Positions 363 through 57,015 of a DNA stretch of 64,000 nt are shown here, one piece after another. Made by a program: the position numbers and the translations under genes. Below the pieces are notes generated by a model. It was not told the origin of the DNA, ran no database searches, and saw only the letters and a list, made by a program, of their open reading frames with translations. Source of the stretch: Climacium dendroides (Eukaryota; Streptophyta; Bryopsida; Hypnales; Climaciaceae); contig OX467086.1 of NCBI GenBank assembly GCA_950106755.1, forward strand, positions 10,310,001 to 10,374,000, written 5' to 3'. The first letter of the stretch is position 1. Each line of letters begins with the position of its first letter.

Positions 363-1689
363 ATGGCTTGTATTAGAGTAGACGATCATGAAATACCTTT
401 GGTGTTTCCAATGAATCACGAAGGACATGCTAGAGTACTCAATCACCTTTTGCATATCAGATTCAAGTTCCTAGAGTCTTCAATCTATGTCGAAGAAGAA
501 AGAAAGTCGGAATCAGGGGAATTAGAGCATTCCATTCCAATGGAGAAGAGTGTAGAAGAAGAAGGCCACTGTTGGTATCTGCGGGCAGGAAACTATAGAG
601 CTTTTGGGCTTCCTCTTAGTCTTCTTGGGGCAGTCATTGAGCTAGGTAGTCGGCAATCAAACAATTCTACAGTGGACATGCCTTACATGTCTCCAAGACT
701 TCTAGCTAGTCTATCAAGTGACTGCTTTCCTATACTCCCGAATAATACGATTCTTACGAAGGTGAAGAGGGAGAAAATGGATACCATTGTAGAGTTGTCT
801 AGTGAATCTGAGGGAGAGTCCCCGCAAGTTGCACTTCAAAACGCCACGTTTGCGGTCCACAGTATGTCAGATACAAAAGTCACATCAACCACCCCATCCA
901 ATAGTTTACAGTCTCCTGTGTTTCCATGCCCTCCACTGACAGCAAATCTTGGTACCCAAGTGAGTATTATGGATTGCTTGAAGAGATTGTCCAGTATTCG
1001 TCGCTCTAGAAGTGAATTGTCCACAACAAACTTTGATGTTATAAAGCACCATCGGGTGTAGTACCTTCCCCCTTCCTACAATGGAGATGTGCTATTTGAG
1101 TTACCTCCGTATCGCTCGTCCTCTTCATCATCCGCAGCGAAGAATTTGGAGGGAATGGACAAGCGCTATGATGGACATACATGGTGCAAACTCGTCACTA
1201 CAAACATCCACAACGTCGACAACCTAAAGTTCCGTAAGTCTTTCTGTGCCGGTCACCTTGCTTGTAAGAACCATGAGTGCGAGTACTTGAAGAGGGCTGG
1301 AAAAAGGAATGAGACAGAGTGGAGTGGATCCATAGTCTTCCCGTTTGCAGTAGGGGATGGTCCATCCAAAGACTGTACCCTAGTGTGTAAAGTCTGCAAA
1401 GTGACATCCACTTGCCTTCACACATGCGATGCTAGGATCTACTATTGTTATAGCGACAATCCAAATATGACAAGGGCATCTATTCACTTTGGAGCCCATA
1501 CTCATCCAGTAGGAAAGGGCATGTATAGAGATTCTAAAAAAGAAATTAGCGAACTCCTAGCGGAGTAGGTTGCGAAAACACCGACAGCCACTAACTCTGC
1601 TATAGCATTGTCCGTTAGCAAAGATTTCCTGTCAAACTACTTATTTCACCATAGAGAGGGAGAGAAGAGAATGTTGAAGGGAAAGGGTT
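363..1689 (+). pseudogene. MULE-like transposase, N-terminal part (copy 1), interrupted
   Basis: N-terminal half of a MULE-family transposase. The start (MACIRVDDHEIPL) was chosen because copy 2 starts at the same point (MASIRVDGYDIPV). In order there is a conserved N-terminal region, a Ser/Glu-rich linker (VELSSESEGES), and a Cys/His cluster ending in an H-x-H motif that resembles WRKY/GCM1- or FLYWCH-type zinc fingers of MULEs (inference). Premature TAG codons lie at 1059-1061 and 1566-1568, where copy 2 has sense codons. The frame then runs into the terminal repeat of an inserted element just after MLKG. The rest of the gene resumes at 19555 with LKGEEVDEVMDR, so this is one gene cut in two. 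Confidence 0.75.
1674..1682. repeat. Left 9-bp target-site duplication TTGAAGGGA
   Basis: TTGAAGGGA here is repeated exactly at 19555-19563. Nine bp is the usual MULE duplication length. Similarity continues a few bases with one mismatch, so the exact edge is slightly uncertain. Confidence 0.75.
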
Positions 1690-1734
1690 GCTAGCGTGCG
1701 AGCTTGGGAGCAGGAGCCTGCGAGCCTGTGAGCG
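1687..1734 (+). repeat. Left terminal inverted repeat of the nested element
   Basis: The sequence begins TTGCTAGCGTGCGAGC and continues with repeats of the AGC/TGCGAGC type. Its reverse complement matches 19488-19554 over roughly 45 bp with small indels. Confidence 0.7.
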
Positions 1735-2571
1735 GGAATTTTTTTAAGAAAAATTTTGTGCAAAAATCAAAAGTTGAATAGAGGGTTGGCAACGAACCCA
1801 TGACCGTGTATTTAGGGTGACTGTAGGCTCTATAACCGTGGATTAAAAAAGAAAAAGCAATTTTGGGAATGTAGTGCCATTTGTGGACTATGAAGGATAC
1901 TTCTATATTTAAGGGATTTTTGTTGCACATAAAATAGAGCTAGGGTATCTTATCACACATGGACTATTGGAAGAAGGTGAAAGTACCTAAATGAGTCAAA
2001 GATAGGAAGGCAATGTTATCTACTAGTGATATTTTATTGTTGGGGGTTTAGGTAGAGTGGTTCAATTGTTGAGCTTTGTTTGTCTTCCCATTCAAATCTA
2101 TGTGTTCATTAGAAGGGCAAGTGTGACCTCATTTTATTCACTACTTCATATCATGACTATCGCCGTTTAAAGGTGACAACATTTATTTGCATTCCATTTT
2201 TTTTCCCACTATGTAGGAGTTACCATTGGAAGGAGTTATAATTTCTTTCCATTTTTATTCCAATCACATTTTTTCGCACTACTCACTAATTTGCAATAAA
2301 TAATTTAGTATACCTTGTTTTCTCTATTTTTGCCCCATTACAGAGTACCTAATCCTGCAGTCGTAAATGAACTCCAAATTCTATAATTCCCACACTTGTC
2401 CAATAGACATAGTTTCTCTCTGAGTGTATATTTCATAACATTTTTTAGGACAAGTTTAGTATCAAGCAAGAAGCACATTGCACCTCATTTGTAGCCATAA
2501 GACACACAAATCAAATAAACATAAAAGGAATACACATAGTTCAACTCATAAGATTTGTCAATCTTATGAGT
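1735..2571. other. Subterminal noncoding region
   Basis: AT-rich sequence between the left terminal repeat and the 3' end of the methyltransferase gene. The part around 1800-1830 resembles, in reverse complement, the subterminal CACGGTCAT-containing sequence near 19370 and 23390. It may therefore belong to the conserved ends of these elements. No gene is supported. Confidence 0.5.
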
Positions 2572-5500
2572 CTAAGTTGCGGTGGACTCGGTCATAGAAA
2601 CCTCACTAGAAGACGACTCTGGCGTCTCCTCACCCTTAGAAGCTGAAACGTCTACAAAATGAACCACATTTGCAGCATACTTCGGGATGCGAGGTTTCGG
2701 ATCTCTACAATCATACTGTTCATATTGTGTCGCCATCTTCTCGGCATACACTGGAAGTTCGTAAGACTTCTTCGGACTCAAGATATGTCTTCGAATCTTC
2801 TTCATTGGATGCGTTCCCTTCATTGCTTCGTTCCTTAAAGAACCACACATAGAAGGTTTAGGGCCTTGAAATTCTTTGTATGCAACGTATATTACAAAAC
2901 AAAAAATGTTGTCATTACAAAGCAAAACTTACTTACTAGGTCTAACGGTGCGTGTGAACAACATTGGTTCGACGTGTACGACATCAAGATCAAGGGCTGC
3001 AATAGCTTCCACTGGAACTTGAGTCACTCCTTCTATTGGAGTGGCTTTCTTCATCGGCTTCAGAACAATGTTGAAGATATCGATGTCCTTCTCCAAGGCC
3101 ACAATATGGCGGCCCGTCCCACGACAAGCCATAATGGACGCCCCTGCAATAGAAGCATGTGGTGAACAATGTTTAAGTACATCTTTACAAGAATAAACAA
3201 TTCATTTTAGAACTCTTTCTTGAAACTGAGTAGTATTATACCTGTAGCAGCGGTGCAGTCGAGAACTACATCATCTTCATCGGTACAGCCTTCGATGAAA
3301 AACTGTAGGAACCTCACATCTTTCTCTCGGGGTCCACGCCAAGGTGCTTTGGTTTCCTTGTTTACCATCATGGCCTCCTCAATAATGTAATTGATGACCA
3401 TGTCTTTCTTTTGGAGGTTCCACTTTGCTTTGGTCATGGCTGTGGTCTGCCTAAATTGGAAAAGTGATGCCACTTTTCCACCCACGTCCTTTATGAAAAG
3501 AGTGACTCCGAACTTCAGGGTCTGCATCAAAAAATTAATTATTAAAGAGGGGAATGCCATTGACAATCACACCATATATCAAACCAAGAATCACATCTAA
3601 AAGAAAACCTAATATCACATGAAAAATAAAATAGAGAACTCACTGTTTCGCCAAGGTTTATTCCCGACGTGAGGTCTAATTGGTTGAATGCCAACCACTC
3701 TTTCTTCATCTTCAAGTTCTTGAAAATTTTCATCAACCCTGCAAACATACTTCGAGACTGAACGCTGTAGGAATGAAACACCAGGAGACAACTGTTGTCT
3801 TGTAAATACTCCTCGGCAAATTGGAATGCATTTTACATTCCAGCATATGCTGGGTCCGCGTTCCACGAGGGAATGCGCTTCTCTGAGACAAGAGGCACAG
3901 GCAGGTTCTCTTGGCTATCGAAGATGATTAGATCCACCAAAGGATCTCTGGTGACCCTGCCGTCGAATGAGCGCGGTTTCCCTGCATTCACTTGCGACGA
4001 AGAAGTTTACCATGTCACAAGAGGATTGAACAAGAAACAAGAAACTCATGTAGAAATTGAAAGAGAGGAAAATTCAAATACATTTGAAGGTTCACGATAC
4101 CTTTTGAATGAAGTCCATGACTTCAACATACGGATTTGGTGGTGAATTCTCAGAATCTTCCATAATATCAATGATGGACACGTTTAAGATAAGCTCCTCC
4201 GTTCTGACATCGTCGTCGTCTATCACCAGGACTTGTGTGCCTTGGGTCAGCATATTCTCCGTCCACTCTCGAAGTATGGCCTTCCTCTTCATCCCGGTGT
4301 GGCTTCCTTCCACCAACTGCGAGCTCTGGTCAACTGCTGAAGACAATGGAACCCCGGTATCGCCCTCATCTTTTTTCTTGCCTTTGGCCTTCGTTTTCTC
4401 CTCCTTCTCTTTCAATTTCTCCCTCTCCTTCTGCTTTGCCAAGCAATCTGCCTCCCTCTTTCACTTGATTTCTAGCGCCAAATGTAGCTTAGCCGCCTTC
4501 TTTCTGTCAGCTCTGTCCCTCTTGGCAATTGCCTTCGCCTTTTGAACTGCGTTGAGACCTGCGAACTCATCGACATTTAAGTCAACCCCACTAATTCCCT
4601 CCAGAGATTCCCGGAGGGCTTGCTCCGATGGATGCGTGTATCCAATAGGGCAATCGAGGTACCACACCCCACGGCTGAGATGAGCCGTGGTGTACGTTTG
4701 GAGTTGACTCGAAGTGTATATGCAGGTTGCCGAATGGCGATCAAGAAAACTCCTAAGGAATTCTGGGAAGTCATCCTTTTTTATTGCACCTTTTCCCTCA
4801 AGTTCAAACTTGAAATACCTGAATTGCCCAAAGAAATGTAACATTGAAGGAAAAGTGAGCGACACGTGAAGTTTTAGTCTAGACATTTCCATCACAAATA
4901 CCAAATGAGAGTCAAGATAAAGTGAACCTGAGTTGGAAACAAATTATATGCTACTTTGAAGGCAGGCTATGGAAGTCTTGGAAGATTGAATTGGTTCCCA
5001 ATTAATTAGCATTTTTGAATGAGCCTTACAAAAGTGGTGTAAGACATACCGATATAGCACCCTTCTCACTGCTTGTTCGGACCCCTTATGCTTCTTGAAA
5101 TTGTCGCTCTTTTTGAAATAATTTGATCCCCTGAGGTAGTTCATATATCCATCATCCCAAATTTTCCTCCTCCATCCCTCCAGGTACTCTTGTAAGGTCT
5201 TCGGCTGTAGCGAGACGTTCATATTGATGACAATGCCGTCGTGCCGGACAACATCGTCAAAGTACTTCACCGCTGCATCCTTGATCTGAGAAATCATAGA
5301 ACAATCAGAATTTATCATCCACTGAAAGAAAATGAACTCTAGAAATTTTAAGGAAAGAAAATCCAAATCCAATGACGTCTACAAATTTATACAAAGATTA
5401 TCACTTACCCCAGCATACCATACACAACGGTTCAAGAAGGGACCAAGTAATGTCTCAGAAATTGGCTTAGGCGGGAATCGCCTGGCATGTCGAGATGGTG

Positions 5501-7019
5501 TTGATGAGTTCCACCATTTCAAGAACTTGATCTTGTGCTCTACCGTGGTGTTGCAAGTGGCCACCATTTGTAGCTTCTCCAGAGTCATCTCTAGCACTTC
5601 ATTGGCACTACAATGTCTCTCAATCTGATATTAAAAAACAAAATAAAGTCAGTCACTGTTTCAGACTTCCTAATCGCAATGTCATATGAATGCTATCAAG
5701 GTGATGGAGGTACCTCCTCAATAAACCCTGGCTTGTTCGCCGGATTGGCTACCGCCACCAACTTGGACATCTTAACATTTAGTTTCCCGAGTTTCTCGTT
5801 TGCCCCAGCTCGCATCGCTTGCGCTAGTTCCATGGGGGAACGGTCTTCCTGTGCTGTCACCTCATTGTATTTGCGACCAGCTGCATCTGCAGCCTGCGCA
5901 ACCTCTTGCTACAGAAGCAAGTGAAAAATAGCACCTTTAAATACAAATAAAGCAAGTATAAAATAGAAGAGAATATAACACATCAAATTCCAAAAGCCTG
6001 AGCATCCTCACCCTGAATACAAATGCCGTGAAGACTTGTAGTGGCATAGAATACCACGTTGGCTTCGGTTTCGGTGCCCCACACAGTCGAAGCTCGGAAG
6101 GCCTCAACATCTCTTGAAAACGCTCAATGGGAAGAAGGTCATACTTTTGCACCCTGTAGAGTGTGTGAACCAAGTTGGTTTTGACGTGAGAATCCTCGGT
6201 GGATCTGAAAAACAATTAATCATAGTGAGATTCATCACAGTATCTGCAGCATCCGAAAATCACATAAAAAAAATTAAAATGTAAAGCAAAAGTACATAAG
6301 AAAGGCTTGAAGGTATCAGAAAGCATACTTGTTGATGTCATGCATGACATGCATGACGAGCTCCGTCCTCTTCTTTGTGTCAAGTAAAATGGCATCCACT
6401 ACGTAATGCCATTCAATGTCCTTGGAATGCATTTTGCCAATGTACTTCATCTAAGAGATGAGTCGATGGTTTCCATCGCAAACATAGAACTTCAGGTTTT
6501 TAAAAAACCTGAGTTCGGGCACGGATTCCACGTAGGCATTGAACGCGTCATTCTTTTCCTTCCACAGCAGCCCCCATGCCTCCATCTCCCCTTCAGTGAA
6601 TTGGGAGCTCTCTCCGGCCTCGTCAGTTGTTGTCACGTAGAAAACCGCTGCCCCGTCGCGATAGCCCTTGCTGAACTCGTGTTCTAGGAACTCGAGGTCG
6701 CATGATAAGGTAGGCCTTACCATGGGCATGGACACCATCCAGCAGAGTGGGATGTTCATTCTGAAAAGGTGGTCCAGCTTCATTCAAAGGGACGCTATAG
6801 ACTTCACCGAATCCACCTTGTGGTATTGGCGGAGTTCTTCTTCCAAAAAATCTTTGTCATCTCCCTCCATCACAATGACCGATGCGTCTTCTTCCATCAT
6901 GTCACCCTCGTCTTCCCCTTCTCCGTCCCCTGCAATGGCCGGTTGCGTTGAGTCTCCTGTAGTTGGAGTCTGGAGATTTGTCTCTTGAGGCCACAAGTTT
7001 GATGGAGTGCCATCCATCT
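2572..7019 (-). pseudogene. ParB-like domain + DNA N6/N4-methyltransferase-like gene, multi-exon, decayed
   Basis: About eleven minus-strand exons with plausible GT-AG joins: 7019-6329, 6204-6012, 5908-5714, 5624-5409, 5285-5050, 4818-4101, about 4000-3644, 3521-3242, 3143-2939, 2872-2572. Most joins keep the frame. Exon 1 ends its N-terminal region with FYVCDGNHRL, the DGNHR signature of ParB/sulfiredoxin-like domains. The C-terminal half shows VDLIIFD (motif IV region, with the expected DPPY replaced by DSQE), NSCLLVFHS, then VRFLQFFIEGC...VVLDCTAATG (motif I region) and RGTGRHIVALEKD. That order fits prokaryote-type N6A/N4C DNA methylases. ParB-like plus methylase is a known phage and bacterial pairing. 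In-frame stops lie at 6784-6786, 6451-6453, 4461-4463 and 3833-3835, so this copy is dead. A 5' exon is probably missing, since 7020 is a splice acceptor. The join near 4101/4000 is not clean. Methylation activity is inference, given the altered DPPY. Confidence 0.6.
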
Positions 7020-7222
7020 GCAAGTTTAAAACATGAGAAGTTGTATTACATTTGAAATAGCCATGATAAATGTAGAGACATACTGACATTGAAAAATTGA
7101 TGAAATCCATAATGAAACAATAGATAATACAATCAATCATTCCTGTAATGGGATTTCATGGAAAAAACAATGTCAAGGAAATGCACCTATCTCAAGAACT
7201 ACATCCCTGTATCTCACTAGAG

Positions 7223-7714
7223 TCAGTCAATTTCTACATCATCATTCGAGTCTGAGCTGAAAAGGATGCAAACTGGATCTCTAAAATTCCGGGCACTACT
7301 ACACGCGCAGTCACAGAATTCTATACCCAAGGGATTGCCACAAGTCTCGGATGGTAGGGATTCCGAAAAGGTTTGACAAGGTTGTTTTGGATCGTCCGTC
7401 TCAACTGATGCTAATGGTGGGAAATGGTGGCGTGTACGCTTCTGAGGTCCTTGAACACACGCTTGACTCTGCACAGTGGTCTCAAATGTATCATGGAAGT
7501 TGTTCACAGTGTCTAGGACATCATCAAAAGTAATCAATACCTCTTCGTCTTCTGGTTGATCACCGACAATGTTCTTGTCCTCTGATTCGATTGACACCTC
7601 TATCTCAGTCTCTTGCAACGGTACAAGAGGCTGAGATGATTCTGCCTCAACACTGACTGGCATCTGAATAGGTGTCACTGTGGGTGAAGCTCTTTCTTGG
7701 CCTCGTCTTGTCTG
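7223..7714 (-). CDS. Acidic hypothetical terminal exon
   Basis: An open minus-strand exon begins after a good acceptor (cttcag) at 7714 and ends with a stop at 7223. The product is acidic and low-complexity (VSIESEDKNIVGDQPEDEE, then SSDSNDDVEID at the end). No domain is recognised. It lies about 200 bp upstream of the first supported exon of the ParB/methyltransferase gene. It may be a decayed 5' exon of that gene or the last exon of a separate one. It looks like a disordered protein tail rather than an enzyme. Confidence 0.35.
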   Translation of the reverse strand, partial: QTRRGQERASPTVTPIQMPVSVEAESSQPLVPLQETEIEVSIESEDKNIVGDQPEDEEVLITFDDVLDTVNNFHDTFETTVQSQACVQGPQKRTRHHFPPLASVETDDPKQPCQTFSESLPSETCGNPLGIEFCDCACSSARNFRDPVCILFSSDSNDDVEID

Positions 7715-7771
7715 AAGATAGGCACCAATGATAGAATTAGATATAATTTTTAAACGGGTATAAAAAACCAT

Positions 7772-8181
7772 CTAAACTAGCAAGCCTTAAAACATAATAT
7801 AAATGTGAAGATCATCTCCAACAAAGACAATTAAGATTTTGGACTAGGCATCTCTACGCATGCACATCCATGATATTGTCTTTCATTCAGGATGCCTTAA
7901 TATTTTTGGCAGTACTAGGGTCCTAAATCCTAAACCATGGGAGGTGCCTTGGATCCTTAAATTTTCAGAGGTCATTTAGTGCATTGCTGGACCTACTAAA
8001 GAGCAACAAAAAATGACCTTTTCACTTATTTTGAGAACCCGTGCCACACTGCAATCGCCAGCGCCACTCACGACACGAGCGCTACTGGCGTCACAAACAC
8101 CACTCGCGTCACGAGCACCATGACCGTCACGAGCGCCAAGAAAAACCAGTGACATACTCACATGCATGAAATTAACTTCCA
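7772..8181. other. Noncoding, with a short GC-rich imperfect repeat
   Basis: Mostly AT-rich. Between about 8050 and 8142 there are four or five imperfect copies of a motif like GCGTCACGAGCACCA. The minus-strand reading (GARDASGVCDAS) is a by-product of the repeat, not a gene. Confidence 0.45.
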
Positions 8182-8295
8182 CATTTTTTTATGGGAAATT
8201 TCTGGGGTCCTGGTCAGTCGGCCAAGTGGTGCCTCGGATCCGAGGCACCACTTGGCCAACTGACCAGGACCCTAGAAATTTCCCAAAATAAAATG
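8182..8295. repeat. Foldback palindrome 1 (114 bp)
   Basis: A near-perfect palindrome centred on GGATCC at 8236-8241, with core TGCCTCGGATCCGAGGCA and outer boxes GGGGTCC/GGACCC. As single-stranded DNA or RNA it would fold into a hairpin with about 50-bp arms. Relatives lie at 8576-8688 and 17286-17355. Confidence 0.85.
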
Positions 8296-8575
8296 ACTTG
8301 TCTTGATTTCATTCAAGAAATCGAGTGCATGATGGACGTAAGTGAGAATCTCCTGCTTGTAACTAATCAGAGAATAAGGCCCATTACGATTTAACGCGTA
8401 CTCTTGGAATTTGATCGCCCAGCTAGCTTATATAGGTTTCAAAACCACACATTCTGTTTCAACCCGCGCTACAAATTCGGTCTTATTGTTGGTTGCTTTG
8501 TTGGAAATGTGAGAGCCCATGAGAGCCCGCGCGAGTCAGCTGGCCGATGATCAAGAACCTTGTAGGATTATGTTT

Positions 8576-8688
8576 CATTTTTTTTTTGAAAATTTGGGGG
8601 GTCCAGGTTAGAGTGCCGGGTGGTGCCTCGAATCCGAGGCACCACCCGGCACTCTAACCTGGACCCCCCAAATTTTCAAAAAAAAATG
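8576..8688. repeat. Foldback palindrome 2 (113 bp)
   Basis: A near-perfect palindrome centred at about 8632. The core is GCCTCGAATCCGAGGC, the outer box GGGGGGTCC, and the ends CATTTTTT/AAAAAATG as in palindrome 1. The segment between core and outer box differs from palindrome 1 but is still self-complementary. Confidence 0.85.
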
Positions 8689-9869
8689 TACTTGTCTTCA
8701 AACTCCCCGTTGTCGGCACTGTATCTACACATCCACGCTTCACTGCGGGTGCGGACTCTCTTGACGAACTGGTACATGGAGATACAGGGAGGAGCTCAGA
8801 ATTATAAATTTTTCCCTTTGCGCGCACAAATTCCCCTCCCGTACTGCACGATCCTATTCTCTTGACACTCACGATGGAACGGAATTCTATCTTCCCAACA
8901 GTGTTCAACAAAAGGAAATCAAGCTTCAATCTTTGCTGACTGCGTGAATCTGAAAGGCTGACCCCAGCACTCTCAAGCTACAAGGATCAATGCGCAATTC
9001 GCGAACACACTCAAGCTCCACGTATCACGCGCCACATTCAAGCTTAGTGGAATCGTACTCACGCACCAGACTCACGATTCACATGAAGCAACAGATGTGG
9101 TTCGGTTACCTTTGCTCGAGCCGGCGCAGCGGGTGGACTGGGTTCTTGAATGCCTCCACGGCCACAGCTCCTGGTGCTCCTCATCGACATACTCTGCAAA
9201 TCACAGTCACGACCCCAACGCTCAGTTCACAAACCTACTCACGGACCGACTTCGGTACAATGCAAGAATGTTTGCAAATGGAGGTGCACACCCTCTCAAT
9301 CATGGAGTCCAACTATGATGTGCATGGAAGAGCGTGGAGGACCACGGAATCCAGATAAGGCTTCAAGAACGTGAGGTCATCGCCGGAAATGCAGTGGTTT
9401 CTAATTTTGTCGCCCGCGTTGTGAATCCTTGGCGTGCTTCATCGGTGAAGTCGGCTAATTTCATGCATAGTGGATTCCAAGCCAGACTGAACGACTGAAC
9501 TTATTGCTAAGTGATTCCATATTTGACTGGAGGTTACTTTTGCCGAACTTCAAAAATCGGTTTGACTGCCGCTTACTTTTGCCGAACTTCAGAAATCAGG
9601 ATCCTTATTTCACCAACGTGCAGGGAGATGGCGACCGACCCATAACACCATCCGCTTGTCATGCCCCATGCATGAGCCAGTTGAATAAAAATCTATAGAT
9701 GAATGGGGTCGGTAAACAGAGATTTCTGCATGCGAGCTAGTACCTAATTGATCACATCCACACATTTCCAACAGAGCAACCAACAAGAAGATCGAATTTG
9801 TAGCGCTAGCTACCTCTGTTTTACACATGATAGTACCTCAACAAGCGCGATTGAATGCACAGGTCCTTG
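8689..9869. other. Interior of the inverted-repeat element, no gene seen
   Basis: Short open frames exist on both strands (for example about 8990-9358), but they overlap each other, lack recognisable domains and look like chance. A small tandem repeat of the phrase TTACTTTTGCCGAACTTCA lies at about 9523-9597. Confidence 0.45.
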
Positions 9870-10029
9870 CAATGCTTGAAACAGAATGTCTGGTTTCCAA
9901 ACTTACATAAGCTAGCTAGGAGATCAAATCTATGCATTCACGATCAATACCAAGAGTTCGCGTTAAATCGTAATGGGCCTTGATCTCTAATCAGTTACAA
10001 GCTGGAGATTCTCACTTACGTCCATTATG

Positions 10030-10407
10030 CAAAATAAGATTGAACTGAGTCCAAGAAACTGTGCTCACGACAATATGTTCAAAAACTTTCACATATTGAA
10101 TTTTATTTCAACTGGTGCAAATCCGCTCCTCATCAACAATCCTATTTTCTGTAGTTTACGGTTGTGAAGGTATATTGACTCTTCAAAGTGTAGGGACTAG
10201 TCCCCAAGTCATCCCCATATTAGCACCTTGGATACTGTAAGAGATTTACAAATTTTTTGTTTTCATTACTCTCTATAGAGCTTTAGTGAAGACAGTTGCC
10301 AAAAGAGAACTTCTACATGTTCAAACACTTACCTTGAATGCTATACAAAATTCAAGTCACCTTCCATGTGATATAAGAAACAGGGACAATGAGGGGCATA
10401 AGGAGAA
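10030..10407. other. Noncoding, nothing recognised
   Basis: AT-rich sequence between the inverted-repeat element and the solo LTR. It ends with the 5-bp duplication GAGAA at 10403-10407. No feature is supported. Confidence 0.4.
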
Positions 10408-10690
10408 TGTGACAACTCATATTTTTTTTTTTTATTTGTTTACCCTTTTGAGCGAACCGGAAATTAGAAATAGGTATCCGGATTCATCTAGAAAGAAAAA
10501 TAAATCCAAAAATAGTCACCAAAATTACCTTACGGAACTAATCCGGTTTTAGGTCAAAGCGGAACGGATTAGATGTACAACCGGATAGTATTTCCAACCG
10601 GAACCTTGTTGATCGGATTAGGAGGTAACCGGATGTCAAGAACCAGACCGGATATCCGACCGGTCATAAAGACAGTCCAGGGCGTCAGGA

Positions 10691-10700
10691 CTATATAAAG
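10691..10700 (+). promoter_or_regulatory. TATA box of family-2 LTR copy 1
   Basis: CTATATAAAG lies about 310 bp upstream of the start codon of the internal protein. It is conserved at 46970-46980 and, on the other strand, near 45526-45536, which supports a real core promoter inside the LTR. Confidence 0.65.
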
Positions 10701-11011
10701 CCTGGCCTTGCCCATTTTCAGGTCTCTGGATTTCCACTTGTTATTGTGTCCTGATTTAGCGCCTGACGTTTCTATCATTGACCACGGCCAAGGAGAGGGA
10801 GTACAAGAGGGTACGGAAGTGAGAGAAGGGTGTGAGACGGAGAGATCTCCTCCGGACATGAGTGGGTGAGACCTTGAGTACGAGCGGATACGTGAGAAGC
10901 TGAGAGTGTGAGCACGCCGGTAGGGTAGTTTACAGGCGGAGCGGAACCTCTGAGTGTCGCGCGCTCCCTTTTTAGGATTGTAGAGAGTGAAAACTGGGTA
11001 GAGCTACCCTC

Positions 11012-11477
11012 ATGCCGCGGTTGAACTGGAAGAGAGGTTCTAACACCCCGCCTCCGAGTGAAGTAAAGCTTAGAAAAGTAGTTCCGGTCATGCCGACCAC
11101 AGAACCGGAATAGGGAGAAGCTCCTATCCAAGGCACGGGAGTCAGCGGACCGGATCGTGGAGAGCAGCCAGAAGTTGACAAAAGTTCCGGTCCGACTCTC
11201 AGAAATTTCTCTTCCGGACTTGTTTCCGGAAGACGTAGCTCAGGAGCCGGGAAAGGACAAGACGCCCCAGTCAAGCAGGGCCAAGAAGGATACACCCTCG
11301 ACCGGACATCAGCCAATGGATTTGGACTCCCCGGAAGCTGAAGAAGAACATCCGGTTCTACCTACGGATGGAGAAAGGAACCGGAATCTAAGTGAGGTCT
11401 TCGAGCAGTTGGAGAGACTTGATGAGAGCCCTACCATTGGATCCCAAGTGTATGAGACGGAACAGGAAGGATTGTAA
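11012..11477 (+). pseudogene. LTR-encoded protein, family 2 copy 1, internally deleted
   Basis: It starts MPRLN like the other family-2 copies and keeps the first about 35 codons (STPPPSEVKLRK, then PVMPT). A TAG follows at about 11112. The next sequence matches the C-terminal third of the full copy (RLSEISLPDLFPEDVAQEPG to YETEQEGL). Roughly 1.2 kb of coding sequence, including the whole conserved N-terminal globular region, has been lost. The surviving tail is Pro/Glu/Ser-rich and predicted disordered. No function is known. Confidence 0.7.
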
Positions 11478-12627
11478 AGATAGGACTTATAGATAGGAAC
11501 TGGAATAGAATCCGGTTAGGATAAGGTAGGACCGGATTGACAGCGCCTTCAGAGGCGGAAATCATGTATTCACTTTTTGCTTTTTGCTTTTTGTATATAA
11601 AACAGTCTCTGAGCTGGAGACGAAGAGAGTTCTTTTGGCATTTCCTTGTGTACTTTCCTTTCAACTAACTTTTGTGTATTTTTCCCAAGTATTGGCAAGA
11701 ATGCACTGAGTCAGAATAGGAAGGTGAGTACGGAGGTGTTGGTAGAGATTCTCCCCTTGATGTATGTTTCCGGTTCTAGGTACATGTGAGTAGGTTATGA
11801 AGAGTTAGGAGTGGATTCCAGTGCCTCAGCAGCTACAGAAGTTTAGCATTCCGGGTAAGAAATCCGTTGATCAGGCTAGGCAGATAGAGAGGGATTCCTT
11901 AGCTGCGCTAGAACTCTTGGGTGGGAAATCCGGTTGAGTATCCTGACTCATGTGAGGTCTTGCCACCGTTGTGGGTGAACGGAATAACTTTCGTAGGTGT
12001 TGGAACGGACAGATTCACTTGTAGCCACCGAACTTCGTGCAGGAACGGATCAGTGTCAAGGTCGTTGTAGTATGAGGGGATCGTACGGGGGGTCTTTGCG
12101 TGACCTGTGATTCGGGTTGCTATCCGGATTATTGTGAAGGACCAAACCGGATCCATGTTAGTTAGGAGATCTGTAGATAGGGAAAGTGGGTCTTCAGCCA
12201 CTATAAGTCACGGAAGGAGTGGTGGGCCTACCACTTTCAAAAGCAAGCGGCGAACCCTCTGATGGTAAAACAGAGGTAAAACTAAACCGGGTATGGAAGG
12301 GTGGACCGGATCAGATCCGCCTAGGAGGATACATAAGACCGGAAGTTGTAGGGTCCAGAATTGATAGGTCAGCCCAGAAATCGGGGAACTAGTAAAACCG
12401 GAAGTAGGATACAGTCCGGTTGAAACTTTCCGGGTGGTTTTTGGTTGTTCCGGTCGTTAGAGGTAGAACCGGAAAGGTAGATTTAAGGGGTTTAATTGAG
12501 TTTATCTCCTTGTTAGAGTTAGCTACTTCACAGGATCTCGTGGGTTTGATCTTTAGGGTCATTTTGTTATGCTCTAGAGTGATTTTTGTGAGTATAATAG
12601 GGAAATTGCTTACTCTGTGCTGCGACA

Positions 12628-13202
12628 GAGAACGACATTCAAATTCAAAACGACTCTATTGCCAAAGTTTTTTCGAATTTCACAAGCCATAGTACCCTAA
12701 CCTTTGGTCTTCTGAATTCTAGTACGGAAGTAAGTTTCATTCTTTGGAGTTTTTCCATATAGGAAATAACAACATGAACATTCTCGTATTGACAGAAAGA
12801 GTGCAATACTAATGTGGTTGAAATTTATAAGTGCGTTAGAACTTACAAGCTGCAGATTCTACTTGGATTCTATAGGGTGCACTTACAAGGCTATTTTGAA
12901 ATTGTCATTTGGTCTCTCCTAGAAACCCAATACTGTGTATGTGCGTAAATCCAAGGTCCCTAATTTTAGCATTTAAAATGTACTCTAGAAAAACCTGACA
13001 ATGTTTTCCTTCACGATCGTTGTTTTAGATATTTGAGTTACAGTTGTTTCGAATGAAGTCTCTCTATTCTTGAACTTCTGTAGCACATCCATGAACCCTG
13101 TAGTTACCTCTTCTAAACTATTACTGTGAATTTCATTATACTTGCATGTGATTGCAATCCTTCCAACTTTGTTCCATGAATAAACAAGGAGACCACATGA
13201 CT
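12628..13202. other. Noncoding, AT-rich
   Basis: Begins with the right copy of the GAGAA duplication. No gene, repeat or RNA is recognised. Confidence 0.4.
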
Positions 13203-13685
13203 CTACAAGCTTTCCTTAGAGGAGTAGAGTGAAGACAGTTCTTTCACTGGAAAGAAACCAAGGGAGCTAAGTGGTTTTTTAAGAAAATACAAAGATGATG
13301 TGCTTACATTTGATACGTCGACTGTGTTCTTCCCGCGTCCACAGGTCAAACTGTTTGCTGAAGCCTCTCCAACAAGCTGGACATTTTCACCACGGGCATC
13401 CTCTTGTCCGATGATACTCCCGCTCTCGAATTGCAGAACTCTACGAAGATCTGAAGACGATGTTTCCCCAGACTTTGGCGCTCCTCGTATACCTCTTTTC
13501 ATCCTCGACCGCTTTAGCTCTCTAGCTGAAGAAAAATAAAAGGACCCTCGTCTCTTCCTTCTTTGTATGGGCCTCACACAAACAACCTCACTAACCTCAC
13601 ACCCTAGAAGCATGAAGGAAAAAGAGAGGGCATCACCATCGTCGCTCTCAACTATACCACAGAACAGAAAACAATCGGAAGACAA
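13203..13685 (-). CDS. Hypothetical 160-residue ORF, no known domain
   Basis: An open minus-strand frame inside the nested MULE. The product is Ser-rich with a basic stretch (RRKRRGSF, later KRSRMKRG). No domain, signal peptide or membrane segment is recognised. It may be an exon of a cargo gene or chance. Its length in AT-rich surroundings and its locally higher GC are the only support. Confidence 0.25.
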   Translation of the reverse strand: MSSDCFLFCGIVESDDGDALSFSFMLLGCEVSEVVCVRPIQRRKRRGSFYFSSARELKRSRMKRGIRGAPKSGETSSSDLRRVLQFESGSIIGQEDARGENVQLVGEASANSLTCGRGKNTVDVSNVSTSSLYFLKKPLSSLGFFPVKELSSLYSSKESL

Positions 13686-15109
13686 TGAAAACTAAAGAAG
13701 CACATGAAGCCTTATACGTTTGGCCAGGCATTCCTATCAATAGCCACCAAAATTTGAATCTACAAGTTCAACACACATGCGAATTTGCTTCATTTGTGGG
13801 CGCGTTCGGCTGTGCCGTCGTCGGCCGTCAAATCCTTTTTTAATAGGTTGGCTCTGACCATAATAGGACTGTCAGTACACATGAGGGCACCGCCGATTCC
13901 ATTCAAAATAAAACCCTGACAGGGTGAAACTACTTTCTCAATACACAACATTCACTCTGACAAAGTACTTGTTCTTCCCTCTAATGGTGTGCCAAAAATC
14001 CTTATTAGTATTGCTCTATTCATGAATTGCTCCCCATTTAATTAGCTCTACCAATTATGGTTGCCTAGAATTTGAAGGGCTCTTAAACCATGAATTTTAA
14101 ATTTGGATTTCATTTCATGAAATTTACCCTACAATCTATGAAATAAAGTACCAAGTGCCTTCAATGTTGTTGGATGAATATAAACAAACTTCTTAGTGTA
14201 CCATGTATGCATTTAGTTGCATAGACAATAATCAATATTATAGTATGGGTATTTTAATTGACTAAATCAGAACCTTAAAATGAAGAAGGCGTCCAAGGTG
14301 AAAATGTAGTTTAAAAATTAGCTATGTCATCAAATTATGGTAATAAAAAATTTCTCTATATTGGCAATGTTTTTGTTTAGCAGGTTAGTACCCCGTATTA
14401 TTAGAGACTAAATTTTCTGTATTGCACATCATCACTAATATTTAGCTGTGCCTTACTTGATGACATCTTCCCAAAAGTAAATTTAATAGCATCCTAGCAT
14501 AATTATTAATTTCAACATATGCCATTCATTAATTTAAGGAATAGAATTTGATGGGTGTAATTATGCATATTCATGTCATCCTCCTTATGCAAGTTCTTTT
14601 TTAAGGAGCGGTTTTCATTACAAAACTAATTTCTATTGAGTGGATCCCAGTATATATTGTCACCAAAATTTCTTTGTGATTCAATTTCGCCTCTTCATAT
14701 CAAGCTATATGTGCTAGTGCTTTTGTAAGGAGCATTTCAATTATTAAAGTAATTAATTTTGATTGGATTCCTAAATGTACTGTTCCCAATATTTATTTGG
14801 GAGGCATACTTCTCTGAATCACTATGTTGTTAGAGTGTTCCTTGTGCTTAGTAGTCACATAAGAATTTGAAATGACCTTTGAACTAATTCATTTTCTTCA
14901 AACTCAACTGTCATATCGTTTCAAATTAAATCAAAGATGTTGCAGATAGGTGTTAAGATTTTGCTAATCGGTTTTAATATATGATTGCTATAGTACAAAC
15001 CAAAGATGCACCACTATCATTGAGAACCCATACCTTTTTGCTGTGGAGCTCATCTTCTTGGTTGCTTGGACTTCTCCTTGTTCCTTGACATTCTCCTTTT
15101 GCTGCAAAG
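13686..15109. other. AT-rich noncoding stretch upstream of transposase copy 2
   Basis: Long AT-rich sequence without open frames of note. It separates the cargo side of the nested element from its transposase gene and presumably includes that gene's promoter. No specific site was identified. Confidence 0.4.
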
Positions 15110-18100
15110 ATGGCTTCCATTAGAGTAGACGGTTATGATATACCTGTAGTGTTCCCAATTGTTCATGGTGGTCACGCTAGAGTTCCTAGTCACCTTCTGC
15201 ACGTCCGTTTTAGGTTCGTAGAAACGTCCATCTACGTTGAGGAGGAGAAAATGTCCGAAATTGGCGAAGTGATTCAATCTGTTCCAGTTGTGAGGTCTGA
15301 CGATGATGGGATGCATTGTTGGTATCTTGGTCCAGGAAATTACAGAGCATACGGACTTCCACTCTCCATGCTAGGTGCATCAACAGAAATCTAAAGTCGA
15401 CAGTCAAATAATTCTACCATGAATATGCCAGCCACTGTTCACACTATGTCACCCAGTCCGTCGACAGATGTTCCAAGTGTGCTACATATGCCTTCTAAGC
15501 TTCTTGTTGTGAAAGAGGAGAAGTTAGATCCAATCATAGAGTTGTCAAGTGAATCTGAAGGTGAATCCCCCAATATTAGTGCTCAAAGAGAGGAGGATTC
15601 ATTCTGCATGGCATCTGTCCAGCCCACTATGCTAAAATCCTCATGTAGAATCTTGTCAAGAAGTCTCTCCAATTCCTCATTCTCACTCCCCCCACCGCCC
15701 CATCCTGTTGAAACCAAGAAAAGCATTATGGAGTGTCTGAAGGGACTTGGTAGTATGCAGCGCTCTCGGAACGAGTTGTCCGCTATAGATTTGAGCATAG
15801 TGAAGCACCAAAGAGTTCCATTCCTTCCAATAGTTTACAATGGAGATGTCATCTTCGAATTGCCTCCTTGTGGGGCATCTTCATCTTCGTCGGGAGCGAA
15901 GAACTTGGAGGGAATGGACAAGCACTATGATGGACATCCATGGTGCAAGCTTGTGACTACCAATATCCAGAACTCCGACAACCTAACATTTCGTAAGTCC
16001 TATTGTGCTGGCCATCTTGCTTGTGAGAATGCCAATTGTGAGTACATGAAGAGAGCTTCGAAGAAAAACGAAACTGAGTGGAGTGGCTACACTGTGTTCC
16101 CTTTCGCCCCCGGTGAAGCCCCCCCAAAGGACTCCACTCTAGTGTGCAAGGTTTGCAAGTTGGCTCCCCAGTGTCTAGGCGCATGCAAGGCTAGGATATA
16201 TTTTGTGTATTTTAAAAACCCTGAAATGACGAGGGCGGCTATTCACTTCGGAGAGCATGGCCATCCGGTTGCTACAAGCATGTACAGGGACTCTACCACC
16301 CTAATACACAGACTCATTGCAGAACAAGTGGCAAAAACACCCACGGCCACAAACTTTGCAATCACTCTCTCAGCTAGTAAGGACTTCCTCGGAAGCTATC
16401 TATTCCACAATGGAGATGGAGAGAAGCAGATGCTAAAAGCTGATGAAATGGAAGAGGTCATGGACCGCTTCCAATACTTGAGTAGTCCAAGTATTCGAAA
16501 TGTCATCTCTTCTTTTCGAAGTGCAGGTACAGTTTTGGCGGAGCTTAAACGCGGTTATGCAACGCCACGGAGTACCAAACCCCAACTTCAAGGGATTCAT
16601 GGCAGATAGTGCCATGGCCAATTGGAATGTAGTGCAGATAGAGTATGGCACTGGTTTTGCCAATGTTGAAATGGAGAATCGGGAGCGGACATGCTTATTG
16701 CATTAGAGTACCTCTCTTCACAAGCACACACAAAAGTACATCAAGGAAGTATTTCAACAACAACATTTAACTCTGTGCAAGCAATACAAAGATTCAAAGA
16801 ATATGGATCAAGCAGAGGTCCGTTATCTTGCAATACGGTCTTGGTGGTTGTCATCTGGTGCGGCCAACGAAGAAGGCTTACATCACCTGGACCATTGGCT
16901 TGCTTTCTGGCATTTCAAATATCGTCAATGGGGAGGCTTCATGGACTTGGTGAGTCAATTTTGTCCGCAAATGTGTTTAGGTGCTTAGGAATCTCTGGCT
17001 CACTTTGCATGATGATGTTATTTGTACTTCTTAAAGAACTTTTTCTTAACTTCTTTTTGTTAATTAAGTTGAACATTTTATTTCTATTTATCAAGAAGTT
17101 GGGACGCTTCACACAATAGGAAAACATGCCTTCGATTTGAGACATGAATAGTCCATTAGATGAGGCCTTACCTGTTTTCTAAATGGAAGAGTCTGAATTA
17201 AATTTTAATAGGGGCAACAGTTATAGTTCTCTCAAATTTTTTTGATAAAATATGAGAAATTTTCTCTCTTAGGAAACAAAACTTAGGGGTTCCCTCCCCA
17301 CCTCCAGTACGTGACTCGGATCCGAGGCATGTGTCGGAGGTGGGGAGGGGACCCCCTTGATTCTTTAAACTTGTGTCCCTAAATCTGATTTGATAGTTGC
17401 ATTTCATAATTGTTTTCAGTTATTTTAGGTTTGGGTTTTTAAGTAGGCTAGATGTGTTGTGTTCGGCAGTAGCAGTAGATTTCTACTATCAGAAATCAGT
17501 ACTTGTCTTTCGTCGTATAGAACTATAAAAGTAATGAAAATTATTTATGAAGATGCTACAAGTTACAACGGTGGTGAATATTTGTTATTAACTCTGTTAT
17601 TCCTTTGATTACAAAATTCAGAAATTGAATTTGGAGGAGATGTTGGATTTGCCATCATGCAATCTATCCAAAACGGTGCATAACAAGTGGCTACAAATGT
17701 CTGGGAAGCGAGGCAACAGCTTGTTCGATGCCACATGTGACGACAGTATCCGTGCTTGGATGCAAATGACAAACTACTGTGCATACTTGAAAGGTTCTGC
17801 AGCGGGATCAGGACCATCAAAAGGGGAGTTGAGGTTGAGAGCTGCAAGAAGAAGCGGAGACCCCAAAAAAATTGCACAGGCATTGAACACATTGCCTGGG
17901 GCAGAGGACATGGGAACTAGAGTGCCACACTTGGAAGGAGAAGAAATCTTTGGGAGCACTAAGGGGAAGTTGGATGTGCCCATTGGTGATGAAGGAGACT
18001 CACACAAACCAGACAAGATCAATTTTTCCCAGCCCCGTGTCAAAACACGATCCACCACGAATGCTTCTCAATCTTCTCCAGACAAAGGTAAGCAAATTCA

Positions 18101-19010
18101 AGCAAAGACTTCTGGGCATGTGAATGTAGCATTTGAAAGCGACTGCGATGCATCCAATTGGCACATTACTAGAATCAACCACAAATCCAACGCAAGATGT
18201 CAAGCTTAGCAGTCCAGGTCTAACATCAAGTGCATTAGCAAGATTGCAAAAGGAAAGAAGGGAACTCCAGCTCCTACTTACCGCGGCAGGAAAGAAGAAT
18301 ATGGTAGTAAGCGAGAGGTGGTGGCTGATTTTTGGTTCTGTTGGGATGATATTGAGCGATGCGTGAAGGGAACAAAGCACAAATGGGTTTTAGATTGGCC
18401 AGAGGTGCCAGAGGTTTGGCCTATTCTCTCTGGAACAAACTTAACCCGCGAAGAGACTTTGTTGTTGCAACATGCCGGATTTCACCTCCAAGAACAACCA
18501 ATTCTATCACCACGTCGGCTATTCTACATGTCTAAGCTATTCAAGCCGGTTTTGTATGACAACCCTCCGCCACTAAACTCAGATGTGTATCCAACAGTGA
18601 GGAACAACAGAGCAATTCGAAGGATTGCAAATGCGCCTACTCCCGAGCAACGGAACAAGTAGGAAAGCGCAGGCAATGTTAAAGGACAAATTTTGGGAGT
18701 AACACTGCTCCCTTTTCTAGGCCTTGGTGCAATTGTGGAGTTAGAGACAGGGTCAAACTCTAATAGAAATACATACAGAGTTACGATGGGCCAATTTCCT
18801 ACATGCACATGCCCAGACTTTGTGAATATGGCAGTTTCTGCAATTGGAGGTCGGCAACAGTACGTGAATTGCAAACACTTGTACTATTTGTACAGGTACT
18901 TTTGCAAGATGGATGTCAATGAAGACAAATTTATTCATGCACCAAGTTGTAGCTTCAATGAATTGAAGTTGTTGCTACTTTAGGCTGCCATGATCACACT
19001 TCCAGAATAG
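15110..19010 (+). pseudogene. MULE-like transposase copy 2, catalytic-core deletion
   Basis: Transposase of the nested element. Exon 1 is about 15110-16950 and exon 2 is 17620-19010. The intron has donor GTGAGT-like and acceptor TTCAG, and holds foldback palindrome 3. Visible in order are the N-terminal domain, the Ser/Glu linker, the Cys/His cluster ending HGHPV, FQYLSSPSIRNVISSFRS, NFKGFMADSAMANW, RSWWLSSGA, and a C-terminal SWIM motif CTC...NCKH. Against copy 3, about 360 bp are missing right after SSFRS, including HVYDSQYKKVMTI. That removes much of the RNase-H-like core. There are also stops at 15392-15394 and 18207-18209. It ends at 19008-19010 (TLPE, stop). It cannot be a working transposase. 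Confidence 0.75.
17286..17355. repeat. Foldback palindrome 3 (70 bp, imperfect), inside intron
   Basis: Centred on GGATCC at 17318-17323, with core CTCGGATCCGAG and outer boxes GGGGTTCCCTCCCC/GGGGAGGGGACCCCC. The left arm has drifted near the core, so it is less perfect than copies 1 and 2. It lies in the intron of transposase copy 2. Confidence 0.75.
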
Positions 19011-19487
19011 GCATAGACACGTTTCTGTATGCACTTCAGTTGTAATGAACTCTTCTTTATATATTACAGTTACAAAATTCTCATGCCAAATTATCCCATC
19101 AAAAGTTCCATCTATATTTCCATTGACGTATCAATTTTGGCTAATGCCTTCCCTAAATCCTCTAAAGTTTTTGCCGTTATTTTTAATTGCCCTAAACTTT
19201 GCAATACAAAATGTTTTAAATCCCTGCTCGTACGGCAACGCTGAGTATCATGAATGCTCAAAACGGTAAAGAGTTCCCACAGCAATGTTCACAAGACAAT
19301 ATTGCCCAGTTTTCTACAAAAACAGATTAAAAATTTGCATAAACATCTATACATCCACGGTCATGGGGTACACGGACATAGGTCCCAAATTCACCCTAAA
19401 CAGCCAAAATAAATCAATTTTTTGAATTTTTTTGGCCAAAAAAAAAAAATGGAAAAAAAATTGGGAAATTTTTGGCTCCATGCTCTT
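19011..19487. other. Subterminal noncoding region of nested element
   Basis: AT-rich with long A runs near 19440. The CACGGTCAT-containing stretch at about 19365-19375 resembles the outer element near 23390 and (inverted) the left end near 1800. It may be a transposase-binding subterminal region, which is inference. Confidence 0.45.
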
Positions 19488-19554
19488 CGCTCACAAGCTC
19501 CTTGCTCCCCGCTCACAAGCTCCCCGCTCCAAGCTCGCACGCTAGCGTCGTTGG
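19488..19554 (-). repeat. Right terminal inverted repeat of the nested element
   Basis: The sequence GCTCACAAGCTCC repeats and ends GCTAGCGTCGTTGG. It is the inverted match of 1687-1734 and a direct match of the outer element's right end at 23472-23546. Confidence 0.7.
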
Positions 19555-22500
19555 TTGAAGGGAGAGGAAGTGGATGAAGTGATGGATCGATTCCAATATC
19601 TAAGTAGCCCTAGTATACGCAACGTAATTTCTTCCTTCCGCTCAAATAACCGAGGAGGGGTTATTGACAACATTATGACTATGAAGAGAGAGTCGAAGTT
19701 CGAATTCATACACGATAGCGTCTTTCCAGGACAGGGCAAAGAGAAAGTATACGTTTTTAAAATGCTAACTGAAGGACCAGGAAGCGGAGTGGATATGGTG
19801 AAGCGTATGCAACCAGGAAAGGACCTTGAAAACGCGTGGATGATGTTCGACCACGTGAAGCGCGTAAAAGATTGGACCACCATGGCCTGCCACGTGTACG
19901 ACTCTCAGTACAAGAAGGTGATGACCATCGTAGTATGCGATATGCAGTCTGAAGATACCCAGGTCCAAGTACAATTTTGGAGGAGTTTGAATGCTGTTAT
20001 GGCATGACATAGCGTGCCTGACCTGAACTTCAAAGGCTTCATGGCAGATAGTGCGATGGCTAATTGGAATGCGGTCCGTATAGTATATGGGAGTGGTTCT
20101 GCGAAAGAGGTCATGGAGAACCGGGAGAGAACGTGTTTGCTACATTGGAGCACTTCCCTTCATAAGCACACACAGAAACACATCAAACAGAACTTTCAGC
20201 ACCAACATATTACACTATGCAAGCAATACAAGGAATCGAAGACCATGGATGAAGCTGAGCTTCGATACTTGGCAATCCGGTCATGGTGGTTGTCATCTGG
20301 AGCCGCGAATGAAGAAGCACTTCATCATTTAGATCATTGGCTTGCATTCTAGCACTTTCGATACCTGCAGTGGGGAGGCTTCATGACAATGGTAAGTGAC
20401 CGTGTCATCTCTCTATCTATATGCATGGGGAGGCTTCATGACAATGGTAAGTGACCGTGTCATCTCTCTATCTATATGGCATGGGGAGGCTTCATGACAT
20501 ACACATATGCAAACACCTAAACGTTTACATGCATATGAACATACGTGTATATGGGTGTTTTTGGTAGTGTAGAATTTTTTTTATTCAAGTAGTTTTTTGA
20601 AATCCACGTATTCTTAGGGCACAATTCTGTTTTAGTGCACTACTGTTTTTGTAGTGAATTATTGGTTGCAGCCTAGATTTTTTGAATTTTTTCTCTTATT
20701 TGAATAGTATTTTGTTAGTCTAGACTTCTTTTTAGGATAGTATTTTTTTTTGGCTTGATTTCCTTTATTCCTTTTATTGATAGTCTAGTTTTTTTGTTTT
20801 AGACAAATGTTCTTAGCCTAGTATTTTTTGGTAGTGTGCTAGTCATTTGTTCACTCCTAATTTTTTGTCAATGTAATATTCTTTTGAATATAGAGCTTTT
20901 TTCAGCAAAGTATTTCTTGGGTAGTTCACTAGTCTTCTAAACACTCCATTTTTTTTAATCCATTTAATATTTTGTTGGAAGTCAATTTCTTTACCCTTCT
21001 CATATAAGTGCTATCTTCCAAGGAAACTCTCTACTGACCTCACAGAATGTATCTTTCATTTCCAATTTTCAAAATTCATTGGAACTAGTGGAAGGTAGTC
21101 CTTCCATTTTTTTCCCTGTGACGTTCAAGGACTACAAAAGGAGTACCAATAGAGAACATTTGGACATCCATCGGATCCGACGGAAGTTGGAGTGCTCACT
21201 TCAAATGCTACTATTTGGGATACCTTGCATGAAAATATGTAAATTTTGGTCAAAGGTACAAATCCATAATTGGAGACTGAAGTATTGTAATGGGTGCATT
21301 TGCAGGGTTTGAGTTTGGAGGAGATGGCAGACTTGCCTTCATGTAACTTGTCTGAAACAGTGCACAATAAGTGGCTTCAAATGTCCGGAAATAGAGGGAA
21401 CAATTTATTTGACGCCACTTGTGATGACAGTATTCGTGCTTGGATGCAAATGACAAAGTATCGCGCCTACCTCAGAGGTCATGCAAGTGGATCCAGCCCA
21501 TCTAAGGGGGAACTGAAGCTGAGAGCTGCAAGACGTAGTGGTTGTCCAAAGAAAATTGCCGAGGCCTTGAACACATTACCTGAAGCACATGGTGTGGGAA
21601 GTCGTGTACCACATTTGGAAGGAGAGGAAGTATTTGGAAGCACAAAGAGGAAGTTGGACGTACCTATTGGTGATGCTGGAGACTCCCATAGACCAGATAA
21701 GATCAATTTCTCTCAACCACGTGTCCGGACTAGGTCAACGAAGGCTTCAGAAGAATTGATGGATGGCAAGGGCAATACAATTGAGGGTCGCCCCTTGCAG
21801 TATGTGACCATTGCATTTGAAAGTGACTGTGACACATCGAAGTGGCACATTGCAAGGATTAGCCACAAGTCAAATGCCAGATGTCAAGCTCAACAACGAA
21901 CGTCAAACATCAAGTATAACACAAAAATTGCGAAGGGGAGGAAGGAAACCCCAGCTCCCACTTATCGCGGGAGGAAAGAAGAATATGGGAGTAGGCGCGA
22001 GGTGGTCTCAAACTTTTGGTTCTGTTGGGACGACATTGAAAGGTGCGTGAAAGGCTCAAAGCGGAAATGGGTCATTGATTAGCTTGAGGTGCCGGAGGTT
22101 TGGCCCGTATTGATTGGGACAAATCTCAATTGAGACGAAACTTTATTGCTACAGCATGTGGGCTTCCACCTCCAAGAACGACCCAGCCTGTCGCCTCGTC
22201 GATTGTTCACCATGTCCAAGATTTTTGAAAGTGTTTTGTATGACCAACCATCGCCCAAGAATCCGGATGCTTATCCAACAATCAGGAACAACCGAACCAT
22301 CAAAAGAATTGCAAATGCTCCAAGTACGGAACAACGGAACAAGTGGGAGAGTGTTGGGAACATTAAAGGACAAATTCTAGGAGTGACCCTACTCCCTTTT
22401 CCAAGCCTTGGCGCAATAGTGGAATTGGAGACGGGATCTAACCCTACCAAAAACGTATATCGAATTACGGTGGGTATGTTCCCCTCGTGCACTTGCCCGG

Positions 22501-56743: not shown

Positions 56744-57015
56744 GGTTGGTAGGAAAAGAAGTATAGGGTCCGGAATGGGGTTTCGAGCATGGATCCGGTT
56801 TCCGGAATCTTAGGCGGATAGTAAGGAAATCCGGTTATCTCGGATGGCAGTTAGCAATCTTTCCGGATATTTTGGGAGGTTCAGGGATTGGTGGCCTGGA
56901 TTTCCGGGTTTCCTTTTCAGGCTTTTAGGAGTTGACTTTGGGTTTTTGTGTTAGTATTTTAAGGGCAGTCAAGTTAGTGTCTGCCATTCCATTCCATCCT
57001 ACTCCACTGGATTTT

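Follow-up and report, generated by a model that had tools for sequence, protein, structure and literature searches.

Why does a moss transposon carry an intron-bearing gene that joins a ParB-like domain to a methyltransferase-like one, and what might its protein do? The question arises from 64,000 nucleotides of Climacium dendroides (assembly GCA_950106755.1, contig OX467086.1, positions 10,310,001 to 10,374,000), a stretch referred to as a whole as the window. A first-pass annotation had placed such a gene in a bounded Mutator-like element (MULE) at 2572-7019 and suggested that it could mark element DNA or counter silencing. The gene belongs, as a resident accessory gene, to a DNA transposon of 16 kb whose ends are Mutator-like. 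As annotated, it has several exons and contains DGNHR, VVLDCTAATG and RGTGRHIVALE; it is read from the minus strand (7017-2572). The presence of both domains in one intron-bearing gene is borne out by (i) structure comparison for the ParB-like part; and (ii) PF01555 scores and a fold model for the methyltransferase-like part. As for function, our preferred reading, tentative and somewhat short of probable, is that the protein is a self-recognition factor: ParB would act on the element's own DNA and the methyltransferase fold would have a mainly non-standard role.

The carrier is a large, bounded plant-type DNA transposon with Mutator-like ends; its ends and target duplication confirm the supposed boundedness and place it at 1683-19553 rather than at 2572-7019. 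Similarity to the fetched copies starts at window position 1684 in all ten, and a 10-bp target duplication (GTTGAAGGGA) lies at both sides of the window element. Duplications of 9-10 bp are found in five of the six copies with both ends (window, c5, c6, c8, c11); c3, whose ends were both read, has none. The terminal inverted repeats match at 20 of the 25 outer bases in the window and at 21 in c5, and are patchy to about 48 bp; the left-end sequence CAGGGTTGCTAGCGTGCGAGC recurs inverted at the right end (19553) with its outer bases changed. Six right ends were fetched, of which five were found, and in c2 an insertion separates the left end from the rest of the element. The five copies with both ends measure 16,039-16,163 bp; a 2.2-kb insertion enlarges the window element, other copies being about 16.0-16.2 kb long.

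Copies were searched for in the 412.6-Mb genome with an 860-bp query over exons 7-8, which gave 172 candidates. Forty places were scored, window included, and all cover the whole query (one of them, 859 of 860); the 39 non-window copies are 96-98% identical to the window over these 860 bp. The ten fetched copies (c2-c11) are the best ten of those 39 and lean to the window's subfamily. Since the query is whole in 40/40 scored places and the ParB half has 117 related proteins (best E 3.6e-97), the gene is not a product of chance.

The transposase (+, 15110-19010) is divergent from the gene, as had been claimed, and its sequence is found in nine of the ten fetched copies; the stretch of c7 stops at its first bases. 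Its C-terminus contains a CxC..CxH zinc-finger-like motif (18804-18878), presumably of the WRKY/SWIM type, and a C..H signature after the second D (TCLLH) which we take to be a Mutator-transposase motif. No Pfam transposase model matched the scanned pieces (up to E 1, then up to E 10), and SWIM reaches only 11.6 bits (E 0.21), in the neighbouring paralogue at 22134-22694. For this reason the element is called Mutator-like by its ends and duplications, its membership among MULEs not being proven: the annotated MULE label holds for the ends and the 9-10-bp duplications and not for a Pfam transposase model. The window element has inserted into an older, related element, whose transposase gene it splits into 363-1682 and 19554-22697. 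In the 10 kb upstream of that older element (L035), no match to a gene was found (best E 1.6), in a search whose window control worked.

The gene has ten exons and encodes a protein of about 1129 amino acids, in which the ParB-like domain spans residues ~70-229, with DGNHR at 181-185 in exon 1. The window copy is dead and the protein cannot be made from it: four in-frame stops interrupt the gene, and exon 7 has AA as its acceptor (3992-3993). This junction was fixed by aligning the ten other copies, which read AG in c3-c11 and AA in c2. Among those ten, c10 and c11 keep the full 1129-residue frame with nine introns, all GT-AG. In c4 and c5 the frame is open and a single splice site is altered in each; five others (c3, c6, c7, c8, c9) contain internal stops; and a large deletion has removed part of the gene from c2. 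The acidic open reading frame (ORF) upstream, at 7223-7771, is present in all 11 copies at 90-100% identity and ends in DVEID; a stop is found at residue 7 in five of them, and 9/11 are open from residue 26 on. Coordinates are collected in Table 1.

Table 1. Features of the element and its immediate surroundings (window positions)
Feature	Positions	Strand	Basis or remarks
Whole element copy	1683..19553	.	similarity of 10 fetched copies and ends read
Left target-site duplication GTTGAAGGGA	1673..1682	.	sequence read
Right target-site duplication GTTGAAGGGA	19554..19563	.	sequence read
Left terminal inverted repeat	1683..1730	+	20/25 outer bases match right end; patchy inward
Right terminal inverted repeat	19506..19553	-	pairs with left end
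Exon 1	6329..7017	-	acidic N-terminus and ParB-like domain; stops 6786-6784, 6453-6451
Exon 2	6012..6204	-	GT-AG, frame kept
Exon 3	5714..5908	-	comparison of copies
Exon 4	5409..5624	-	comparison of copies
Exon 5	5050..5285	-	comparison of copies
Exon 6	4101..4818	-	middle region, charged stretch; stop 4463-4461
Exon 7	3644..3991	-	motif IV region; acceptor lost here; stop 3930-3928
Exon 8	3242..3521	-	motif X and motif I (DVVLDCTAATG)
Exon 9	2937..3143	-	ACRGTGRHIVALEKD
Exon 10	2572..2873	-	C-terminal tail, stop
Conserved acidic ORF upstream of gene (exon or small separate gene)	7223..7771	-	copy comparison
Iteron-like array, two 39-bp units	9522..9599	+	repeat comparison; 2-12 units across copies
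Later insertion of another repeat	10408..12627	.	absent at this place from other copies
Mutator-like transposase gene, decayed	15110..19010	+	318-bp deletion at 16517/16518, in-frame stops
Older related element's transposase, 5' part	363..1682	+	67-70% identical to 15110-16426
Older related element's transposase, 3' part	19554..22697	+	SWIM-like CxC..CxH motif

A full-length search with the broken window protein returned nothing at E <= 0.01; unlike it, intact-copy alignments with relatives did find relatives. The alignment of the ParB half gave 7 pattern stretches and no relatives among viral contigs, and 36 stretches with one relative (L047) among prokaryote genome contigs. This relative (CADCWO010000058.1, 1-4691) carries an intron-bearing ParB-methyltransferase-like gene and is binned as an uncultured Synechococcales cyanobacterium; because the gene has introns, the contig is probably eukaryotic contamination. 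Relatives with the same architecture stand at 24-60% identity, L047 on its unrelated contig among them. The same genome holds two or more additional families of the gene, divergent in sequence (L036-L043, L045, L046); the L038-L043 family has DCFASTG as motif I, and a two-exon piece from L042 scores well above the PF01555 cut-off. Two single 3.5-4-kb stretches beside the other two families (L044, L048) showed nothing clear of the element's transposase (best E 0.041 over 23 residues). An ORF at L044:1459-2352, some 7 kb upstream of the L036-family gene, resembles to the eye plant transposon proteins of the En/Spm type, and Pfam did not confirm it.

Within the element family, non-synonymous and synonymous changes were compared against a neutral expectation corrected for sequence context. 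Their ratio is 0.53 for residues 1-300 (69 distinct changes), 0.71 for the middle (120), 1.00 for the methyltransferase part (69) and 0.44 for the short tail (25), stops left out; these counts are small. The values bear on the idea that the gene is functionless passive cargo captured in a Pack-MULE-like event. The window copy and several others are indeed broken, as such an origin would have it; nevertheless, the gene is carried whole with its ten exons, intact frames exist, synonymous change is in excess in the ParB half and relatives, one of them on an unrelated contig, keep the same architecture, so that passive carriage is very unlikely.

Regarding the ParB-like half, structure comparison supports the fold of the ParB N-domain: in the AlphaFold model of the N-terminal domain, the 14 best structural matches are all ParB, Noc, KorB or PadC. 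DGNHR is found in 36 of the 45 aligned rows; as a GxHR-like box, it would be nucleotide-binding. Sequence profiles from the PDB returned no ParB, which is seen by structure only. The few weak Pfam rows among the 45 aligned members are CB_ParB_C (E 0.2, one member) and DUF1015 (best E 0.053, two members), and the remaining families appear in single members only (best E 0.0047, an unrelated family).

The C-terminal half is predicted to have the fold of beta-class amino-methyltransferases, as modelled on L047: that model shows a methyltransferase fold with the motif order IV-X-I, and its best structural rows are MboIIA, M1.HpyAVI and CcrM at root-mean-square deviations (rmsd) of 5.0-5.6. Structure prediction, proposed with the annotation as a check, thus yielded the ParB fold in one model and the methyltransferase fold in the other. 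The profile search on the spliced gene, a further proposed check, came out in part: N6_N4_Mtase (PF01555) reaches 25.7 bits in intact copy c10 (cut-off 26.7) and ParBc has no match. Two related families of the same genome give 29.7 bits (F2) and 37.5 bits (F3, the piece from L042). The VVLDCTAATG and RGTGRHIVALE stretches are both present.

The catalytic motifs are altered. Motif IV reads DSQE in the window, where the annotation had already noticed the change, and DCQE in c3-c11 (the region was not recovered from c2), hence the alteration is not particular to the window copy. DPP[YFWH] occurs in none of the 30 aligned relatives that cover motif IV, and DVPE in 22 of them; the wider pattern [DNS]PP[YFWH] is likewise found in 0/30, and the first D is kept in 30/30. 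These 30 rows form seven clusters at 70% identity, one of them with 17 rows, many being close relatives. Motif I is near D-x-T-A-[AST]-T-G, not DPFxGxG, and the acid after it is kept in three aligned families. Judging from these alignments, the missing DPPY is family-wide and not decay of the window copy; therefore, ordinary adenine or cytosine amino-methylation is doubtful. An active N6-adenine or N4-cytosine methyltransferase, targeted by ParB to the element and leaving marks for the transposase or against silencing, would account for the fold, the PF01555 match, the invariant first D and the conserved acid, and is also proposed for an Ectocarpus gene in PMC12477816. It is nonetheless unlikely in view of the motif IV counts, the departure of motif I and the methyltransferase part showing no detectable constraint within the element family. 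Since DPPY is absent, the annotated role, in which methylation would mark the element's DNA, is the less likely one.

Between both genes, all 11 copies carry 39-40-bp units (TTTGACTGCCGGTTACTTTTGCCGAACTTCAGAAATCGG); the window copy has two of them and other copies as many as 12, and 8/11 copies have an extra unit-like match about 1.6 kb further on (3.7 kb in c7). The units were chosen by core similarity, and the conservation of their core is partly built in. This array is a candidate ParB site. Read together with the ParB fold and the altered methyltransferase motif, it suggests self-recognition by DNA binding over methylation. The ParB domain would load on DNA of the element itself, the iteron array being the likeliest place; it may then spread or bridge, as ParB clamps bound to cytidine triphosphate (CTP) do; and it could bring together element ends, transposase or promoter, or keep the element accessible. 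The methyltransferase-fold half (D-x-P-E; here D-C-Q-E) would be mainly a second DNA-binding or flipping module or, alternatively, have a changed chemistry that is not that of a standard N6A/N4C methyltransferase. A more specific form, namely a ParB-parS-like eukaryotic system on a plant transposon, in which a clamp on iterons is fused to a methyltransferase fold whose DPPY became DxPE throughout a large family of eukaryotic proteins and which reads bases or acts differently, has a low probability.

Several points weigh against self-recognition through ParB and a non-standard methyltransferase fold. On the ParB side, (i) ParBc is absent from Pfam scans of the window protein, one relative and the 45 aligned members; (ii) the assignment covers the fold of the N-domain only; (iii) the link of the array with the protein is putative; and (iv) a palindromic operator within the repeat unit was dropped, its dyad being no better than shuffles (232/500, 49/500), so that the array may be a neutral minisatellite. 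On the methyltransferase side, (i) the model of L047 stands in for an element protein to which it is 24-27% identical, at a predicted local distance difference test (pLDDT) value of 67.8; (ii) it fits known enzymes loosely, at an rmsd of about 5; and (iii) D-x-P-E still has the acidic residue at its start and, in many cases, the second proline, which makes some catalysis possible. Finally, the selection ratios include neutral decay after insertion, and the contrast in constraint between both halves is weak (34/69 against 46/69 distinct changes non-synonymous).

Other repeats are present too: near-perfect palindromes, 70-120 bp long and alike at their centres (CTCGGATCCGAG or a sequence close to it), lie at 8182-8304 and 8576-8698, as well as at 17286-17355, and are perhaps small foldback elements; a long imperfect inverted repeat (8326-8511 and 9761-10031) flanks the middle of the intergenic region.

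The copies also record their past methylation. In the nine copies compared (all but c2 and c7), most changes are C>T or G>A, and C>T per site and copy amounts to 5.2% in CHG, 3.8% in CG and 1.0% in CHH contexts, against 0.4% for A>G/T>C. Scars of this pattern are what plant-type cytosine methylation leaves behind, and they suggest a plant host. Because they fall on synonymous sites, raw dN/dS values (non-synonymous to synonymous substitution rates), of 0.16-0.41 among c4, c5, c8, c10 and c11 and of 0.34-0.45 against the window copy, are not used as evidence. VANDALs, the hosts of VANC, are Mutator-like, and we know of no ParB or methyltransferase domain in VANC. A VANC-like anti-silencing factor, which binds its own element's repeats and removes or blocks host cytosine methylation, would suit a gene other than the transposase on a Mutator-like element that has an array of tandem repeats and whose copies are methylation targets; moreover, Hosaka et al. 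(2017; PMC5735166) state that VANC targets often form tandem repeats. On the other side, the deamination scars show that the copies were methylated, and an explanation of this kind is rather improbable. The heavy CG and CHG scars indicate that the gene did not keep its copies free of cytosine methylation: the annotated idea of countering silencing finds no support at the sequence level, though a brief anti-silencing effect may have occurred.

Elsewhere in the window, two related kinase/APH-like ORFs (30281-31519 and 36699-37942) share HNDISPDNIMFHF and repeated surroundings, the first with a Pkinase match of E 3e-5, below the cut-off. At 52445-53983 (-) there is a C-terminal dimerisation domain of a hAT transposase (27.9 bits against a cut-off of 21.4). 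A block of about 2.7 kb that bears long gag-like ORFs is arranged head to tail at 54356-61500 and occurs once more at 23777 (23777-27321), the copies being ~87-92% identical.

With respect to known proteins, the CTP-binding domains of bacterial ParB, Noc and KorB are ~9-15% identical to the moss domain, which has no Pfam ParB match, and bacterial ParB has a GERR box where DGNHR is found here. MboIIA, M1.HpyAVI, CcrM and the rotifer N4CMT share the modelled fold and the motif order IV, X, I; nevertheless, beta-class enzymes have DPPY instead of DVPE or DCQE, and motif I is also altered here.

A ParB-methyltransferase cargo on transposons is of an already known kind. Dinatale et al. (2025; PMC12477816) describe Sola1-1_Ec32, a giant DNA transposon of Ectocarpus whose 1104-residue accessory gene combines ParB with an N4C/N6A-methyltransferase on the strand opposite the transposase, and suggest that proteins of this sort may bind and modify the transposon that encodes them. 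The moss gene (1129 residues) has the same domain pair and the same opposite-strand layout, the likeness being one of description only; the carrier is a Sola1 there, whereas here it has Mutator-like ends and 9-10-bp duplications. The same source cites ParB-methyltransferase genes on green and red algal transposons (Iyer 2011; Petroll 2025), that is, the same pairing in other hosts, and reports giant EnSpm elements of red algae that bear accessory genes. Among the open-licence papers listed by the literature searches, only PMC12477816 was found to describe this cargo, and neither a Mutator-like carrier nor a family-wide motif change nor an iteron array was found for it. The annotation knew of no MULE with this cargo; the domain pair as such is described. 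Two further systems are more distant: (i) VANC, also a non-transposase protein encoded by a transposon and acting on targets that are often tandem repeats, whose likeness to the moss cargo is putative; and (ii) the retrotransposon-borne DNA methyltransferases of dinoflagellates and charophytes (PMC5890265), which are transposon-encoded too but are C5-cytosine enzymes on retrotransposons. If the algal genes are homologous, the Mutator-like carrier suggests that the cargo moves between transposon superfamilies. For the brown, green and red algal transposons the function of these genes is a guess; the moss adds a high-copy family with intact genes, a candidate binding site and a family-wide loss of the methylation motif, and makes the choice between a methyltransferase and a DNA clamp that reads its own repeats directly testable.

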